Assembly: GCF_000711695.1 (NCBI RefSeq)
Contig: NW_013546897.1
Coordinates: 1-47,824, forward strand
Direction: 5' to 3'
Length of the DNA stretch: 47,824 nt
DNA from: Tilletiaria anomala UBC 951
Taxonomy: Eukaryota > Basidiomycota > Exobasidiomycetes > Georgefischeriales > Tilletiariaceae
Shown here: positions 13,815-44,229 of the stretch, piece after piece
Numbering within the stretch: position 1 is the stretch's first letter
How the letters are laid out: the number at the start of each line of letters is the position of its first letter
Translations under genes and position numbers: made by a program
The notes under the pieces: generated by a model
What the model saw: the letters and a program-made list of their open reading frames with translations, nothing else
What the model was told of the DNA's origin: nothing
The model's database searches: none

Positions 13815-14783
13815 TCAAGCCGCATGGACCAGCCAAAATTCCGGGAAGCCTTTGCTCTCCGGGTCATTCGTCTTGCCCGGTTCGACTGATCCGTCGCTAG
13901 TGCACCATATCCGCCTGAGTCGTACATTAGCGTGAACATGAATGTATGCGATGCTTTTGAACCCTTCGATCCGCTTACACTGCCCTTGAACGTCCTGCTG
14001 TGTATGAGATGATATATGCTCCTGTGCGGCATGCTGTAATGACGAATTGTTGAACAGCTTAATGAGACGGTGTAAGGGCAAGCTCATGACAGACCAAGCG
14101 GTGAGCGCGGTCGGATCTTTGGCTGGTGAAGTTGGCAGGTCGAGAGGAAGATGCAGTAGGGGGCTCCCAGTCATGTCTGAGCTTGTATTCCGCACTGGAA
14201 GATAGAGGCTCGCGTCGCGCTGGAAAGTGCTCGCTCGTATGCGAGCCAATTGCCCCCGTGCGTCACGCACGCCGACCTCAAGACTTAACGGTCGGGCGCG
14301 GCCACCGATGCCGTCCAGAGGTGCAAGGTGAAGATGCAAGAAGGGCAGACCTTCAAGCGCCATCTCCGTTTGTGCCACTGTAGCTCCAGCCTCGGGTGAG
14401 AATGTGGGCGCGCCAGAAGAGCCTAGAGGCGGACATCGCAGCATAGTGGCCTTGATATTCGGACTCTGGAGGTGAAGAACGGTTTCTGAAAGTCGCCTGC
14501 CCGGCCGGCTGCTTGCGTGGAAGATAGGCCCATCAGCACCCGGTAAGGTCACTTGGCCTTTTCCAGATTGGCTACACAGCTTGAATCGGCGTACGTCACG
14601 AGCGAGCCGAGTCGGATCATTCTCAGCACTGTCCAACTGCTGGTCAGTGTCATCGTACAGGAAGACAGCGCCGCTGTCTTCGGGAAGCGCACGGTCGGCA
14701 TGGACGCTGAACAAAGTGAGCGGCGCGGAGGACGTGGACGTGAAGAGGGTCAGAGGAGATGGGGGCTTTGCTCCATTGAACAT
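13815..14783 (-). CDS. CFAP20/BUG22-domain (DUF667) protein
   Basis: One uninterrupted frame of 322 residues. The order of conserved blocks follows CFAP20: an N-terminal MFNGAKPPSPLTLFTSTSSA, then NIKATMLRCPPLG, LPFLHLHLAPL, RPLSLEVGVRDARGQLARIR with ASTFQ, LLHLPLDLP, TAWSVMSLPLHRLIKLF, and FKSIAYIHVHANVRLRRIWC followed by KGFPEFWLV. CFAP20 is a beta-sandwich protein of ciliary microtubule inner walls, but Bug22 relatives also occur outside cilia. The protein is about 130 residues longer than animal CFAP20 (193), mainly through insertions after residue 30 and between the last two strands. It converges on the Mg2+ transporter gene, with 292 nt between stops. Family membership is my reading of motif order and should be confirmed with a profile. 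Confidence 0.75.
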   Translation of the reverse strand: MFNGAKPPSPLTLFTSTSSAPLTLFSVHADRALPEDSGAVFLYDDTDQQLDSAENDPTRLARDVRRFKLCSQSGKGQVTLPGADGPIFHASSRPGRRLSETVLHLQSPNIKATMLRCPPLGSSGAPTFSPEAGATVAQTEMALEGLPFLHLHLAPLDGIGGRARPLSLEVGVRDARGQLARIRASTFQRDASLYLPVRNTSSDMTGSPLLHLPLDLPTSPAKDPTALTAWSVMSLPLHRLIKLFNNSSLQHAAQEHISSHTQQDVQGQCKRIEGFKSIAYIHVHANVRLRRIWCTSDGSVEPGKTNDPESKGFPEFWLVHAA

Positions 14784-22148: not shown

Positions 22149-25100
22149 ATGTCGTCGCATAACAAGCAAAACGGTAGCTTGGCCGCCAACACCAATGGCC
22201 TCAACTCCTCGGCTCCCACCTCTAATGCCGCGATAACCCCTTCGCCCGTATCGGAAACAGCAGCCCTCTCGCCAAACCATCCTAGAAATCTGCGCAAGCT
22301 GGCTACAGTAGATCTGACCGATGACTACACCATCAAGTCATATGTCGGCGCAGCAAACGCCTTGCGCGACAAGGCGCAAGCTGCAGATTTGCAGGGGCAG
22401 CTTGAGCAGGCGTTCGTCAACTACCTCAAGGCAGCCCAGTGAGTAAATCAGTCTAAACACCGACTCCACTGGGCCCGGCGATCAAGATTTCTCACTCATG
22501 CATGCTCTCCCGCAGGATTGTGCTGTTTATCCCAAAGCACAAAGAATGGCAGGCAGTCGCCCAGCGCCGCTCTCCAATCTACTATCGCTATCAGGATATC
22601 ACACAGCGCACGCCAGATATGATTGCGCGCGCCAAGCGGATAGAAGAGCAGCTGATTCAAAGAGAGGAGCGTCGAACACGAGAAGCAGTAGCGGAGGCTG
22701 CCGCTCGACAGGCCAGCAGCGATGGGCAGGGGCTCCAAGATGATACTCGGCCCCGCTTACAAGCCAGGGAGGGAATTGAATGTGGAGAGGAGCAGGCATT
22801 GTACGAGCTTGATGGCCATCTCGAGGCACTGAGCGTATCAGACGCGCAAATAGAAGATGCTTTGAAGGAATGGGGTAAGTCTTCGAACACAGCAGCATCT
22901 GCGTCGTCGTCAGATGTAGCTGCTCGTCAAACGGACCTCTCAGGTCCGCGAGCAAGTTCTTCATCCTCAGCCAGTGCTACATCCTCGGGAGACTCGCATG
23001 TGCATTCTTTTGCTCGAGAGGGAAACATCACAACGTCTCTGCATGGTCCTGGAGCCATGCATCCGCGCTCCGGCACGCCAGACCTTAGCACTGAAGATGT
23101 GAACGCCAGGACGGATGAGGCAGTGAACAGCCTCGAAGCACGCTTGCAAGCTTTGCGAGGAGGTGCATCTGCTTCCGATACTGCTGTTGGTGGCTCTGCC
23201 TCCTCAGCATCTGGGGCTGCGCACAGGTTCGGCCAAGGCGGGCAGCCTGGCAGCACAGATAGCTACAACTCGATTACCGGTAGGCGCTTAGACCATTCTG
23301 CAGCATCGGCTACAGGCGGCCGGTTGCGATCCGGTTGGGAACCGCAGGAGCTGGAAATCCCTCACGATGTACGACACTACTACGAGGATGAAGGTGGGGA
23401 GCCGACACCACGCGATGACGGCTCTGAAGCGTTCGACCAGCAGTACCCCTCACTCGACGAATTTGAGCGCGAGATCGGTAGCACAAGAGATACAGGTACA
23501 GGATCAGGTATAGGGGGATCAGGAAGACAGCCGACAAATGGCTACCATCACGCCGCATTCGCGGAAGAAGGGGAGGAGGGCGAAGCGGCTGGACGGCCAA
23601 TCTTTCCGACTGCACCGGATCACCAGCCTGGGTTTAAACGTGATATGAGATCGTCGCTGGGTGAGCCGCCTTCACGGCCTGTCGGGTCGTTCCCACCCGC
23701 ACCACCGACGGAGCTCATGCAAAATGGAGCAGCGCGCACAGTAGCAGGAGCGGTGGCGGGGGAAGATCCTTTGCGGCCTTCTACTGCACCGAATGCATCG
23801 TCGACGGCCGCGCAGTCGATCTCGATGACCAGCGCTGCGAGAGCTCGCCCGCTCATTCCGGCTGGCTCCAAGCCTTCATCCAAGGCCGGTCCTTCGGCCA
23901 TGTGTGCCTCTACGTCCACAACCAGCAGCAGTAACTCCATGACGCATCCAGCCCCGCCGTTGCCGCCGCCGGCGCCACCCTCCGCGCCTGGTGCTGGCGA
24001 TGGATCATACGGCGTCAAGCCACAGCCTCCCTTGAGCAACCACGTCAAAGCGCATGAGCTATGGCAACTACTCAATCCTGGTTTCGCATCAGTGCGCGAT
24101 CAAGCGACTGGACGCGAAATCATTCTCAAGCGAAAGGGACTCAGAGTGCTCCTATTGGATCTTAGACCCAAAGAACACTATCAGAAGGGAAGGATCAAGG
24201 CGGAGCATATTGTTAATGTCGAGCCGCTCATGCTCAAACCTGGGTAAGTACGTCCCTGTCTTGATCATCCCTCCGCACAAGAGGACGAGTCGCTGATCTT
24301 TATCTCGACTGCAGGATGACATCCGACGAGATAGAGAACAAATTGATCTTGTCAACACAAGCGGAGCAGCAGGACTTTGCCAACCGGCATACATTTGATC
24401 TCGTCATTCTCTACGATCAGAATTCCAGGTCACTCGGCCCCGTGCCGATCCAAGCAGCTTCAGGCAAGTTGAATTCATCGGATGAGGCACGCGAAAGGTT
24501 AGACATCGTGGTCAAGGCCATCTATGAAAGGGAGTTCCGCAAGAACCTGAGGCATCAACCGACTCTTCTGGTGGGAGGCTTCGAATCTTGGATTAGGGCT
24601 GTTAGGGAAGATGGCGCTGTAGGCATCGGTGAACCGTCTGGCGAGACTGCAGTCAATGGAGGAGCCGTCAAGCTTCGATCTCCCAGTCAACCTCCACAGG
24701 AAAGTGATAGGGTATCATGGCGACAAGGTGCAGTATTGCCGGACGAGATGGATACACCGCATACAACACACTCAGTATATCAGTTCCATCTGACCGCCAA
24801 TGGCGCCTCCTCACTTACACCGCTACCCCCAGCGGCGGCCTTTGTGGCGCCTTCGCTTCCTGCTCGGGCATATCAAGCCGGTACGCCAGTAGGCATGGAC
24901 GGTTTCGCTGTGCTTCCTGCGCCATATGCACCTGGTTTTGTCGCATCATCTTCTCAGCCCCACATTCCGTATGGGGCGCCTCAGCCGAGTCGGAAAACAA
25001 GCTTTGACTACCCTCAGCTGCGCTCTCAACAGTCTTCAGACACCCCAACACCGCCTCCCGCAGCAGCAGGCAGCAGCACGCGCGCAACACATGGGCGAAC

Positions 25101-26372
25101 AGACTCATCTACCTCCATTCCGCACGCGACGAGGCTGCAGGAATCTCTGCATCGGCCACCGCTCGCCGTCAAGCACACCAACAGCTTGTTCACCTCGTCT
25201 CAGGTGGCTCGCGTGCGCATCGGCTTGACAGGATTGAAGAATGTAGGAAACTCGTGCTACATGAACTCGACGCTGCAATGCTTGAGTGCTACGCCCAAGT
25301 TCGCGCGCTTCTTCCTCGATGGGAGCTACAAGAAGGCGATCAACGAAACAAATCCGCTTGGAACGAAAGGCGTGCTTGCTGAGGCTTTCGCAGGGCTCAT
25401 TCGTGTCCTATGGTCGGAGCACTACACCTTTGTCTCACCTGTGACCTTTCGCCAAGCGATCACGCGCTTTGCCCCGGCTTTCCGTGGCTATGACCAGCAT
25501 GACAGCCAAGAGTTCCTTGCATTCTTGCTCGATGGGCTGCACGAGGACCTCAACTACGTCATCCACAAGCCTCCGCCGGTTGAGATGACTCCACAGCGGG
25601 AGGCTGAGCTCGAAACGCTTCCACAGCAGATTGCTAGCGTAAAGGAATGGGCCATTTACCGCCAGCGCAACGACAGTCTCATCGTCGATTTTTTCCAGGG
25701 TCAATTTAGAAACAAGATGACATGTCTTACATGCGGCAAGACTTCGGCCACCTACAACGCTTTCATGTACCTGTCTCTTCCGATCCCAAGCGGTCGGGGG
25801 ATCAGCAAGGTCACGCTGCAGCAGTGCCTCGACGCGTTCGTCAGGGAGGAGATCATGGACAAGGCAGACGCATGGAATTGTCCGCAGTGCAAGAAGCCCC
25901 GGAAAGCGACGAAGCGGCTCAGCATCTCGAGACTTCCACATTTCCTCTTGATCCACCTGAAGCGATTCTCCTTCCGCGGGCCCTACACGGACAAGATTGA
26001 GACGCGCGTCACGTTCCCAACGAGCGCACTCGATTTGACGAACTACATGCCGCCGCCTCTCCCACCAGGCGCAATAATGAAGGGCGTCCCTGTCAGTGTT
26101 AGTCAGCAGCCGCCGTATATGTACGACCTCTTTGCTGTCACACATCACTTTGGAACGCTCAGCTCCGGTCATTATACAGCGACAATCCGCAACAATGGAC
26201 AGTGGGATTACTGCGATGACAGCCGTATCGTCCGCAACGATGAACGGCAGCTTCATGTGAGTCGAAAGCAGAACGCACTAGTCCTTCGTATTGAGTCTCG
26301 CTGCTTACGCGTCCGTCGCGCTTGCAGACCAATTCGCCGTACGTCTTGTGGTTTCAACGACGACCAAATTGA
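22149..26372 (+). CDS. DOA4: Ubiquitin C-terminal hydrolase, DOA4/USP8-like
   Basis: Four exons (22149-22438, 22516-24243, 24315-26256, 26328-26372) give 1334 residues. Three parts are visible. The N-terminal helical region (about 55-175, with FVNYLKAAQIVLFIPKHKEW) resembles the MIT/USP8-dimerisation region that binds endosomal ESCRT proteins. A rhodanese-like domain follows (about 610-770, LLLDLRPKEHYQKGRI). The peptidase domain begins near 975: GLKNVGNSCYMNSTLQCLS holds the catalytic Cys987, DQHDSQEFLAFLLDGLHEDL the second box, two CxxC pairs (CLTCGK, CPQCKK) a zinc site, and HHFGTLSSGHYTATIRN the catalytic His1292. The family removes ubiquitin from endosomal cargo and recycles it. Long Ser/Pro-rich linkers join the domains. 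The last exon is 45 nt (TNSPYVLWFQRRPN, then stop), supplying the conserved YVLWF end. Doa4 versus Ubp5-type assignment is inferred. Confidence 0.92.
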
Positions 26373-26491
26373 GGCGGGCTTGTATTGCAGCAGACTTATT
26401 CTCATGGGTACTTCGGTAGAGCTTCACGCGCCCTGCATTTTGTAAACAAAAAACGTATGCCTGCACATACTACATTGCGACTCTCTTCTCG

Positions 26492-38659: not shown

Positions 38660-39603
38660 TCAAAGACTCATGCCACCGAGCTGCTCGATCATCGCGTCGA
38701 TCTCGTCCTGATCCTCCAACCCAAGCTGCATTCATTTCCCATCCAGCCCAGCGTAACGACGTGAGGCAAGAAAGCGAGATGATGACAAGCAAAAGTTAGC
38801 AGAGACGAAGTAAGCGTCGAGCAACTCGCACGAAGCTTACCGTGTCTGCAGTGTCCTCATCGTTCACTCGGGCGCCATCAAACATGAAACGGACTGACCT
38901 ATTTTCGGAGAGAGAAGAATTTGCTTTTGTTCATATGTTGCTGATGTGGCGCCCAAAGCAGCATATCCGGAACTCACGATACTGGTTTTCCCTGTCGGCC
39001 GACGGGCAGCGAATTGTAATGCAGCGTGAGATATTGCGCTTCCCATCTGTTCGAAATGGAGCTGCATAGCAAGCTCCGCTGGTTACTAGGAATCGACTTA
39101 CCATTCGCTCAGCGTATGCTGTCATTAATCCCAAAGGTGAGCGGAGCAATGATCAGCCATTGCCCCGGGGGGTCGCGGTATGATTTTCTGGAATTTGACT
39201 CACCCTTCTTCAGCTTTGAGAGCTGAGCGATCGCAAGGATGCGACCCCAAGGAAGGAGCGTAAGCAGCAAATTCAGTTTCCAAGCATCCTTCTTCAGTAC
39301 GGGAGGGCGGTCATACATGGGTCATACGTACTTTTGTGGTCTTCTTGACCTGCAGATGGACGAGAAGTTAAGTACAGGAGAAAAGTCGAGGAAATCAAGT
39401 CAGCGGCCACCGCTTCACTTTCCCAAGGCATGAAGGCCTCGATACCACATGTGCTCCACAGGGCACCGCCGGGCAGTTCCGTGCGCATGTACGAGTGGAC
39501 GAACCTTGAAGAAGACCTCGAATCCATCAGCATCCTTGACCTTGATATTTAGCTGGTTGTCCTCAGAAGTCTCCGGCTTGATATTCTGCTCGGCGTCGCT
39601 CAT
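38660..39603 (-). CDS. SMT3: SUMO (Smt3), gene split by four consecutive microexons
   Basis: Seven exons (39603-39505, 39349-39332, 39222-39204, 39118-39102, 38991-38978, 38898-38841, 38725-38660; 99, 18, 19, 17, 14, 58 and 66 nt) give 96 residues. SUMO is conjugated to lysines of nuclear proteins. The joined protein has LNIKVKDADGFEVFFK, VKKTTKLSKLKKAYAERMGK, PVSSVRFMFDGARVNDEDTA and DTLGLEDQDEIDAMIEQLGG, then MSL, which a Ulp protease would remove to expose Gly-Gly. Each microexon has GT-AG borders, phases match and the product aligns with SUMO without gaps, so the structure is well supported although the first donor (GTTCGT) is weak. Introns are 79-155 nt. The N-terminal tail lacks an obvious chain-forming VKxE site but contains IKPE. 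Confidence 0.9.
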
Positions 39604-41468: not shown

Positions 41469-42101
41469 CGCGAAGGCATTGATTGCAATGGTAGTACATG
41501 TACAGTGCCCAAGCTCTTTACATTGGCTGCGGCGCGCTTGCTGATGCTGCGTTCCATCTGCGTTCGTATCAGCGATCAATAGATGTATGCAGACGCTACA
41601 TGCTTTGTCGGAGATAGTGCTGACGACGAGACATCAAGGATATAGGACTCATCACGCGCTCACCTTAGCACGGTTGGGTCGACCTTCGTGAGCCACGGCA
41701 GTCCCAGCTTGAGCATTTGGGCGAAGCGAATCAGTTAGTAGTAGAACACAGATGAACTACTTCCGCCGTCTTACTCTCATGCGTTTTTTTAAATACATTT
41801 TTTATGCTCCAGTTCACCGGCCCTCCGCCTGGAGCAACGCCAACAATTGTCCAAGCCCAAAAAGAAAGAAAGAAAAGAAAAGAAAAACAAATGGAAAGGG
41901 AAAGATCAAAGAAGATGACGCTGTGTGCTGGACGCAGCTGGGGAAGAATGGGGGGAAGCTCATGTCTCGATTCGAACACACAGCATCGCTTTTATGCCAC
42001 TGTCCATCACGGCGCCATTTCTTTCTCACTTGCAGGTGACCATACAGCAGCCAGCTGGGGTACTCGACGGAGAATTATTCTTTAGCCTGTCAAATCACAC
42101 G
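41469..42101. promoter_or_regulatory. Upstream region of SUMO-like gene and TOM70
   Basis: 633 nt between divergent genes. A purine-only AAAGAAAGAAAAG-type tract lies at about 41858-41889, about 220 nt before the TOM70 ATG. Splice-like signals and a protein-like stretch near 41660-41710 on the minus strand could be leader exons of the SUMO-like gene, but no frame can be settled. Confidence 0.45.
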
Positions 42102-44229
42102 ATGGCGCCCGCAGTATCACCTGCACATCAGCAGGCCGAGCGAGCGGCCGACGTTGCTCAGTCTGCCGGGGCGAGGTTCACACGCTGGCTCGAGGACAAT
42201 CGATATGTGCTCATGGGTGCCGCTGCTGGTGTCGGCGCCGCCGGGTTGGCATACTACTTGATCAGCGGACCGTCCTCACCACCAGGTGGCCGGGGAGGCG
42301 ACGCCAGCAGCAGCTCTGCCAGTGTTGGCCCAGGGGGAGAGAAGGGCGGCAGCTCCAAGAAGAAGAACAAAAAGAAAAAAGCCAGCAACAAGAAGGATGG
42401 GGAGAGGGAGCTGCCGGGAGACGGCCCACTGCTGGAAGAAGCGAGCGATGCGCAGATCATAGCCCTTTCCGCTGAGGAGATTGCTCGTTTGCCCGGGCAG
42501 CGTCGCAAGGACATTGCACAGGCGCTCAAGACAGCCGGCAACAAGGCGTACAGCGAGCGCGAGTATGAGAAGGCGATCCAGCTATACACAAAGGCCATCG
42601 CTGCAGATCCGCTCGCGGTATTCTACAGCAACCGGGCGGCGTGCTACAACAATCTCGGAAGGTATCTCGAAGTGATCGACGACTGCAATGAGGCGCTCAA
42701 GCAACAGAAGGATTACGTCAAGGCTCTCAACAGGCGGGCCACCGCTCGTGAGAAACTCGGAGGGGATGGCGGGAGTGGGGGCGAATCAGATGAAAAGATG
42801 CAGTCTCTCATCCGCAGCGCAGAAGGTGCGTCTGCACTACTTATCCTTCCATATTTGGTAGTCATCAACTGACGAACCTTTCACACTGCACAGACTTTAC
42901 CGCTGTTGCAATTCTAAGCAGATTTAAAGATGCCGCAGCGACCCAAGCGGTCGAGCGTGTGCTCAACACCTTTGCACGCGCTAGGGCTGGTCATACGCTA
43001 CGAACGCGAGAGCCGCGACTACCATCTCCGACGTTCGTCATCGCCTACCTAGATGCGTTCCGCAAAAAACCCGTGCCGGCTCTTCCAGCAGAGCCGTCGC
43101 AGGGTGACAAGACGCTCAAGCTGGCGTACGAGGCGCTTGCAGCCAATAATTTCCCACATGCTTTCTCGCTCATCAGCGAGTCCCTCGACCAAGGTCTCAG
43201 CACGGACGACTTGAAGGCCAATGCGCTGAACATGCGCGCAACATTCCAGTGAGCCTTTCCCTGCAGTCCTGAGCATCTCTAACTTTAAGGAGTAATCATT
43301 GCTAAACTGCGCAACCTTTGCTCCACCAGGTTTGTCATCGGCAACGCCCCGAGTGCCCTTGAAGATCTCGATGAGAGCACGCGACTTGTCCCCTCGTATG
43401 TCCAGAGCTGGGTGAAGAAGGCGAGCGTGCACATGGAGCTTGGTCAGCGCGAGGAAGCATTCAACGACTTCGAGCGAGCGATTCAGGCAGACCCTTCGGA
43501 TCCGGATATCTACTACCACCGCGGCCAAGTCCACTTCATTCTGCAGCAGTTCGATGAGGCGCTCAAGGACTATAGCAAGTCGACCGAGTTGGACGACTCA
43601 TTCATCTTCAGTCAGGTGCAGTATGCCGTCGCGCAGTACAAGCTTAACAAGCTGCCGCAGTCCAAGCGATCCTTTGAGCGCATCCTGGCCAAGTTCAGCA
43701 ACAGCTCCGAGGCGTACAATTACTGCGGCGAGCTTCAACTCGACCAGCAAGAGTTCGAATCAGCGCTCGAAAACTTCAATCGGGCCATCGCGCTCGAAGC
43801 GGCCAAGGCGAACAGCAGCAATGTCCTTCCAATGATCAACAAGGCTCTCTTGCTGTTCCAGTGGAAGACCGACTTGGCAGGAGCCGAGGAGCTTTGTCGG
43901 AAAGCGCTCGAAATCGACCCGGATTGCGATGTCGCGGTCGCCACACTCGCCCAGCTGTGCCTCCAGCAGGGCCGCATTCCCGAATCCATCGAGTTCTTTG
44001 CCCGGAGCGCACAGATCGCGCGCACAGAGCCTGAACTCATCAACGCCATCACATACGAGCAGGTGAGCTGATTTATTGAATTTTTTGATGCTTTTGCATA
44101 TTTCAAAAAGTGAGCTGACCCTTGAAGAGTGCCTCTCTCCATCAGGCTTCGCGAGCCCAAGCTTCCTTCATCGAAAAATTCCCAGAACAAGGCGCCGACC
44201 TCGCTGCTCTGGCTGGGGCTATGCCGTAG
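42102..44229 (+). CDS. TOM70: Mitochondrial import receptor TOM70
   Basis: Four exons (42102-42825, 42894-43248, 43330-44062, 44146-44229) give 631 residues, the usual size (617 in yeast). Tom70 sits in the outer mitochondrial membrane and receives Hsp70/Hsp90-bound carrier precursors. The anchor is near the N-terminus (about 36-54, LMGAAAGVGAAGLAYYLI), followed by a Ser/Gly and Lys-rich linker. Tetratricopeptide repeats follow: ALKTAGNKAYSEREYEKAIQ, ADPLAVFYSNRAACYNNLGR and KQQKDYVKALNRRATAREKL form the chaperone-binding clamp, and a second block (GQREEAFNDFERAIQADPSD, DIYYHRGQVHFILQQFDEAL and others) the precursor-binding part. The last exon (ASRAQASFIEKFPEQ onward) was fixed by the acceptor CATCAG and phase. 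Confidence 0.95.

Follow-up and report, generated by a model that had tools for sequence, protein, structure and literature searches.

Four consecutive microexons in a SUMO gene model of Tilletiaria anomala, supported by protein match, donor sites and spliced alignment

A SUMO gene model that is interrupted six times, with several very small exons in a row, raises the question of whether exons of this size are genuine parts of the gene and, if they are, how they would be spliced and what they would mean for the output of the protein. The gene model occupies positions 39603-38660 on the minus strand of contig NW_013546897.1 of Tilletiaria anomala UBC 951. The window referred to below is the whole stretch of this contig that was analyzed (positions 1 to 47,824; 47,824 nt). 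An earlier, sequence-only reading of this DNA had proposed the gene, its exon borders and a control of SUMO dose through splicing.

The proposal that the locus encodes SUMO was borne out by the protein itself. The 96-residue product of the seven exons matched the Pfam family Rad60-SLD with 81.2 bits (cut-off 23.8) over positions 1-72 of the 72-position profile, and a search of the PDB with this protein returned 185 distinct sequences at E values up to 0.001. The best of the 60 listed among these 185 matches were 4bkg (SUMO2, matched in two stretches) and 5gjl (E = 7.2e-23), a chain that carries only the label "Uncharacterized protein", and these were followed in the same listing by SMT3 chains and SMT3 fusions. 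Sequence identity was 44% to SMT3 (1l2n), 46% to SUMO2 (4bkg) and 45% to 5gjl. As had been claimed, the stretch encoded by the microexons aligned without gaps to all three chains; we assign this conserved stretch to the terminal part of strand beta2, the loop and helix alpha1 of SUMO. The protein ends in EQLGG-MSL directly before the stop codon, its GG aligns with the GG of the three PDB chains, and the gene model includes the short MSL tail after the diglycine, of the kind that is cleaved off in SUMO processing. Additionally, the SUMO acceptor consensus is psi-K-x-E, which the N-terminal IKPE matches. Judging from these sequence features, the encoded SUMO would be competent for conjugation.

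Recomputation of the gene model reproduced all of the exon and intron coordinates, lengths, phases and borders that had been proposed (Table 1). The seven exons yield a coding sequence of 291 nt. Exons 2 to 5 each fall below the 20 nt used here to define a microexon, are each preceded by AG and followed by GT, and lie consecutively inside this one 96-codon gene, with a combined length of 68 nt. All six introns begin with GT and end with AG.

Table 1. Features of the SUMO gene model and middle exons of the competing four-exon models (positions in the window).
Feature	Positions	Strand	Length (nt)	Description	Basis
Exon 1	39505..39603	-	99	start codon at 39603; MSDAEQNIKPETSEDNQLNIKVKDADGFEVFFK	translation and spliced alignment
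Intron 1	39350..39504	-	155	phase 0; GTTCGT..CAG	
Exon 2 (microexon)	39332..39349	-	18	VKKTTK; acceptor CTGCAG, donor GTACGT	translation, spliced alignment, donor census, donor-weighted controls
Intron 2	39223..39331	-	109	phase 0; GTACGT..CAG	
Exon 3 (microexon)	39204..39222	-	19	LSKLKK and one base; acceptor GCTCAG, donor GTGAGT	translation, spliced alignment, donor census, donor-weighted controls
Intron 3	39119..39203	-	85	phase 1; GTGAGT..CAG	
Exon 4 (microexon)	39102..39118	-	17	AYAERM, first codon split; acceptor TGACAG, donor GTAAGT	translation, spliced alignment, donor census, donor-weighted controls
Intron 4	38992..39101	-	110	phase 0; GTAAGT..CAG	
Exon 5 (microexon)	38978..38991	-	14	GKPV and two bases; acceptor CGACAG, donor GTGAGT	translation, spliced alignment, donor census, donor-weighted controls
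Intron 5	38899..38977	-	79	phase 2; GTGAGT..TAG; without YTNAY branch-like motif	
Exon 6	38841..38898	-	58	finishes S56, then SVRFMFDGARVNDEDTADT	translation and spliced alignment
Intron 6	38726..38840	-	115	phase 0; GTAAGC..CAG	
Exon 7	38660..38725	-	66	includes stop; LGLEDQDEIDAMIEQLGGMSL; diglycine and three-residue tail	translation and spliced alignment
Middle exon of four-exon models, three versions	39038-38978, 39038-38983, 39046-38983	-			spliced aligner

The donor sites provided a line of evidence of their own. The usual fungal donor motif is GTRNGT, which accounts for 2.7% of the GT dinucleotides on both strands of the whole window. The 606-nt middle of the gene contains 26 GTs, only four of which are GTRNGT; each of the four sits directly behind one of the four microexons as its donor. 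The odds that four random picks among the 26 GTs would be exactly these sites are 1 in 14,950, or about 1 in 3,000 if five picks are allowed so as to include the intron 1 donor. The two donors of the gene without the motif are GTTCGT (intron 1) and GTAAGC (intron 6). With their GT-AG ends and GTRNGT-like donors, the six introns have the character of U2-type introns. Branch-like motifs were found as CTRAY in three of the six introns and as YTNAY in five, with variable spacing to the 3' end; a motif scan of intron 5 found neither form.

The microexon borders were also recovered by a spliced aligner whose inputs were a reference protein, BLOSUM62, GT, AG and a fixed intron cost, with no splice-site weighting; the donor census is therefore information that this aligner lacked. 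The references were the aligned stretches of SMT3 (1l2n), SUMO2 (4bkg) and 5gjl from the PDB search. At intron costs of 5, 8, 10 and 12, the borders of the four microexons were obtained with all three references, and at a cost of 15 with two of them, 5gjl giving a four-exon model instead. Four-exon models were preferred with all three references at costs of 18 and 20. When the aligner was weighted with a bonus for GTRNGT donors, which was chosen after the donors had been seen, the microexon borders were obtained with all three references at 10 and 15 and with two of three at 20, where 5gjl still led to a four-exon model.

Controls were built by replacing the middle segment of the gene between the exon 1 donor and the exon 6 acceptor, both of which were left in place. 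In the unweighted alignment, none of 500 dinucleotide-shuffled middle segments matched the observed score in any of six settings, with the tightest margins at a cost of 10 (135 versus a shuffle maximum of 134 for SUMO2, and 163 versus 161 for 5gjl). With donor weighting, the observed score was reached by none of 1000 shuffles and by none of 1000 same-length segments, drawn from either strand of the rest of the window with the SUMO locus excluded, for each of the three references. The microexon layout is more than chance, as all 12 controls (500 or 1000 replicates each) were without an equal score. Altogether, the spliced alignments, the controls and the donors give good support to the earlier claim that the four microexons are real exons of the gene model.

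The reading that we favor, with a probability of roughly 0.85, is that this SUMO gene carries four genuine consecutive microexons that are spliced constitutively by U2-type intron definition, with later introns having arisen beside old ones. The major (U2-type) spliceosome would most likely excise all six short introns constitutively, pairing the splice sites across each of them. An exon of 14-19 nt would offer scant room for spliceosome parts at both of its ends together, and this crowding could be eased stepwise, because the removal of one neighboring intron lengthens the exon. The suggestion of intron definition, which the sequence-only reading had also made, seems reasonable given the short introns, the strong 5' splice sites and the habit of fungi, which are thought to use this mode of recognition (PMC2219887).

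One alternative to this reading is that there are no microexons and that the gene has four exons, with a single exon of 56-64 nt between an extended exon 1 and exon 6. This is the structure that the aligner chose at the higher intron costs, and the version with the middle exon 39046-38983 retains the length of 96 residues. However, the raw match of the four-exon models was lower by 53 (SMT3), 54 (SUMO2) and 40 (5gjl) BLOSUM half-bits. Of the three versions, one of which has exon 1 running to 39493 followed by 39038-38983, the two with middle exons 39038-38978 and 39046-38983 were built and scored with Pfam, and they reached 45.9 and 51.3 bits on Rad60-SLD, 30-35 bits worse than the seven-exon protein. 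Both require the donor GTCCAC after exon 1 and pass over the strong donors after exons 2-4. In addition, residues that are invariant in the four-sequence alignment are altered in both, namely K35, T38, L40, L43, R50 and G52 in the 39046-38983 version and K35, T38 and L43 in the 39038-38978 version. The four-exon models were rejected on these grounds and must be considered very improbable. A decaying pseudogene or an assembly artefact that merely appears interrupted might be suspected from an exon structure that looks odd next to neighboring open frames of hundreds of codons. The start, the stop, the seven-exon frame, the diglycine and the strong splice sites are nevertheless all intact, and six insertions that each have GT..AG ends would be unlike the product of decay or of an assembly error. 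The G+C content of 0.66 at codon position 3 versus 0.31 at position 2, a coding-like contrast taken without a control set, also argues against decay, which we regard as hardly credible. Recursive splicing has been described for certain exons (PMC6224609), and exons 2 (CAG/GTCAAG, from 39349) and 6 (TAG/GTCAGT, from 38898) do start with GT straight after the acceptor AG on the minus strand, so that donors might be regenerated after joining. Yet both GTCAAG and GTCAGT carry C in the third position, outside the GTRNGT motif, and strong donors follow exons 2-5, which makes this explanation exceedingly doubtful.

A further alternative accepts the microexons and concerns their use. The earlier reading had calculated the outcomes of exon skipping, and its calculation stood in that losing exon 3, 4 or 5 on its own puts the sequence out of frame (products of 60, 56 and 57 residues, respectively) and that the loss of exon 2 (18 nt) has a distinct, in-frame outcome; it had overlooked that joint skipping of exons 3+4 (36 nt) and 2+3+4 (54 nt) also preserves the frame. 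The same is true of the non-adjacent combinations 3+5 and 2+3+5, and the frame is lost when exons 3-5 (50 nt) or 2-5 (68 nt) are skipped jointly. Retention of introns 1-6 singly gives products of 62, 45, 76, 103, 56 and 89 residues, each stopped upstream of the normal stop. Since all six single retentions and the single skips of exons 3, 4 and 5 run into an early stop, the gene tolerates few errors, and failed splicing would, as with other split genes, leave less of the functional product.

It has been proposed on this basis that splicing controls SUMO dose, and one may picture the microexons as regulated cassettes whose skipping or inclusion tunes functional SUMO or yields forms that cannot be conjugated, as with human SUMO1-alpha and SUMO2-alpha. 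In-frame skips are available, as listed above; human SUMO genes do yield exon-skipped isoforms, of which SUMO1-alpha and SUMO2-alpha are non-conjugatable (PMC9911741); one switch-like microexon is known in Trichoderma (PMC11121469), and exon skipping has been reported in Cryptococcus neoformans (PMC3990503, PMC2219887). Additionally, skipping is associated with short exons across eukaryotes (PMC6142364), which speaks against a purely constitutive use of the microexons. However, eukaryote-wide skipping is also more typical where splice sites are weak and the flanking introns longer, and its level in fungi is comparatively low (PMC6142364), whereas the four microexon donors here are strong and the flanking introns short. 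The in-frame skips would moreover leave a Rad60-SLD match of 56.6 bits after the loss of exon 2 and of 47.0 bits after the loss of exons 3+4, compared to 81.2 bits for the complete protein. Regulated skipping thus seems unlikely, and the proposed control of SUMO dose by splicing found no support in these observations.

Under the favored reading of constitutively spliced microexons, the gene is a compact natural test in which an intron-definition spliceosome meets several exons whose length falls short of what exon definition needs. It would also serve as a warning for annotation, as annotation software that enforces a lower limit on exon size would be expected to lose the core of SUMO or to invent a four-exon substitute. 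It is conceivable, though distinctly improbable, that the microexon run ties SUMO output to spliceosome capacity through a constrained order of intron removal, such that slowed splicing would lower SUMO first. Were this the case, and if spliceosome proteins are SUMO targets in the host, splicing and sumoylation would be linked in a feedback loop.

With six introns per 291 coding bases, the SUMO gene gives the impression of being unusually interrupted for its neighborhood, judged from the open frames around it. Heuristic intron candidates in neighboring genes were unverified by homologs and were hence left out of any splice-site model. Amongst these neighbors, a 726-codon ORF at 24265-26445 on the plus strand, at a distance of some 12 kb from SUMO, contains a nearly complete USP-type ubiquitin hydrolase domain, with USP15, USP4 and USP11 as its best PDB matches. 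Phospholipase-D-like ORFs of 858 and 624 codons are also present in the window. Two TPR ORFs of 317 and 260 codons (41919-44071, plus strand) lie on the same strand in different frames, and the shorter one has Tom70 among its best PDB matches; for these reasons they are probably one gene with short introns. The ORF at 13815-14783 on the minus strand carries a weak CFA20 domain that is above threshold (26.3 bits, cut-off 24); in other settings this family is connected with flagella. No matches to Rfam were obtained for the window at the gathering threshold, and a scan of the window with ARAGORN returned no genes.

Searches of contig collections were made with the SUMO protein and with a four-sequence SUMO alignment. 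The protein gave 12 pattern matches and no relatives in a viral contig collection, and the alignment gave 221 pattern matches and no relatives in the same collection. In a genome contig collection, the alignment gave 270 pattern matches and two relatives, NZ_MSIF01000054.1 (Actinophytocola xinjiangensis) and NZ_QBUK01000018.1 (Flagellimonas amoyensis). Each is a contig of 6623 bp with a T7 promoter, lac operator, His tag and SUMO, and all 55 of the 100-mers sampled from NZ_QBUK01000018.1 occur in NZ_MSIF01000054.1. Both look like a contaminating SUMO-tag expression vector and, being a His-tag/T7 vector in unrelated bacterial assemblies, were rejected as comparators for the SUMO gene.

The human SUMO genes offer a reference for the age of the introns. 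Exon 3 of human SUMO2 spans codons 52-75, and human SUMO exons are ordinary in length. Exons 5 and 6 of the Tilletiaria gene together (14 + 58 = 72 nt) also cover codons 52-75, with phase 0 borders. If the human borders do lie there, introns 4 and 6 share the positions and phase of human introns and are therefore probably old, and introns 1, 2, 3 and 5 may be extra. A few old introns, before G52 and before L76, would most likely have been joined by additional introns nearby. Human SUMO2-alpha, in which exon 3 is skipped, is missing R56, R59, R61, D63 and P66, by which the extract of PMC9911741 brackets the exon 3 borders only as at least R56 to P66. The split structure is shared by the human SUMO1, SUMO2 and SUMO3 genes (PMC9911741), and exons 5 and 6 here would equal the human exon border for border. 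The difference, given these human borders, is that the Tilletiaria gene cuts codons 52-75 once more and the upstream part further.

Amongst fungi, the SUMO gene CpSmt3 of Cryphonectria parasitica likewise contains introns, but it has three exons and two introns compared to the seven exons found here (PMC11111931). Our search of the open-access literature turned up neither a fungal SUMO gene described with consecutive microexons nor a paper joining microexons with SMT3, and consecutive microexons were found there only for RPS24; these negatives hint that such a run in fungal SUMO may be new. Very short internal exons in multi-intron genes are known from Cryptococcus neoformans, where exons go down to 1 bp and are hard to identify automatically (PMC3990503), and from the P450 genes of Phanerochaete chrysosporium, with microexons of 2-10 codons (PMC1184071). 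The earlier description of the present gene as extreme for a fungus hence stands only in part: four consecutive microexons are striking, but tiny exons as such have precedents. A run of four within a 96-codon gene is nonetheless not described in the extracts of these two papers. Plant microexons (1-15 nt, backed by RNA-seq) are similar in that such small exons are often misannotated and that two adjacent microexon clusters occur in Peptidase M1 genes, although the extract of PMC8831610 describes no run of four. The microexon of Xlr2 in Trichoderma virens is also fungal, but it is single, regulated and experimentally shown (PMC11121469), in contrast to the predicted run of four in the SUMO gene. 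As tiny exons have been reported in basidiomycetes, the microexons described here belong to a kind that is already known, and the SUMO run is a striking and unusually dense example of it.
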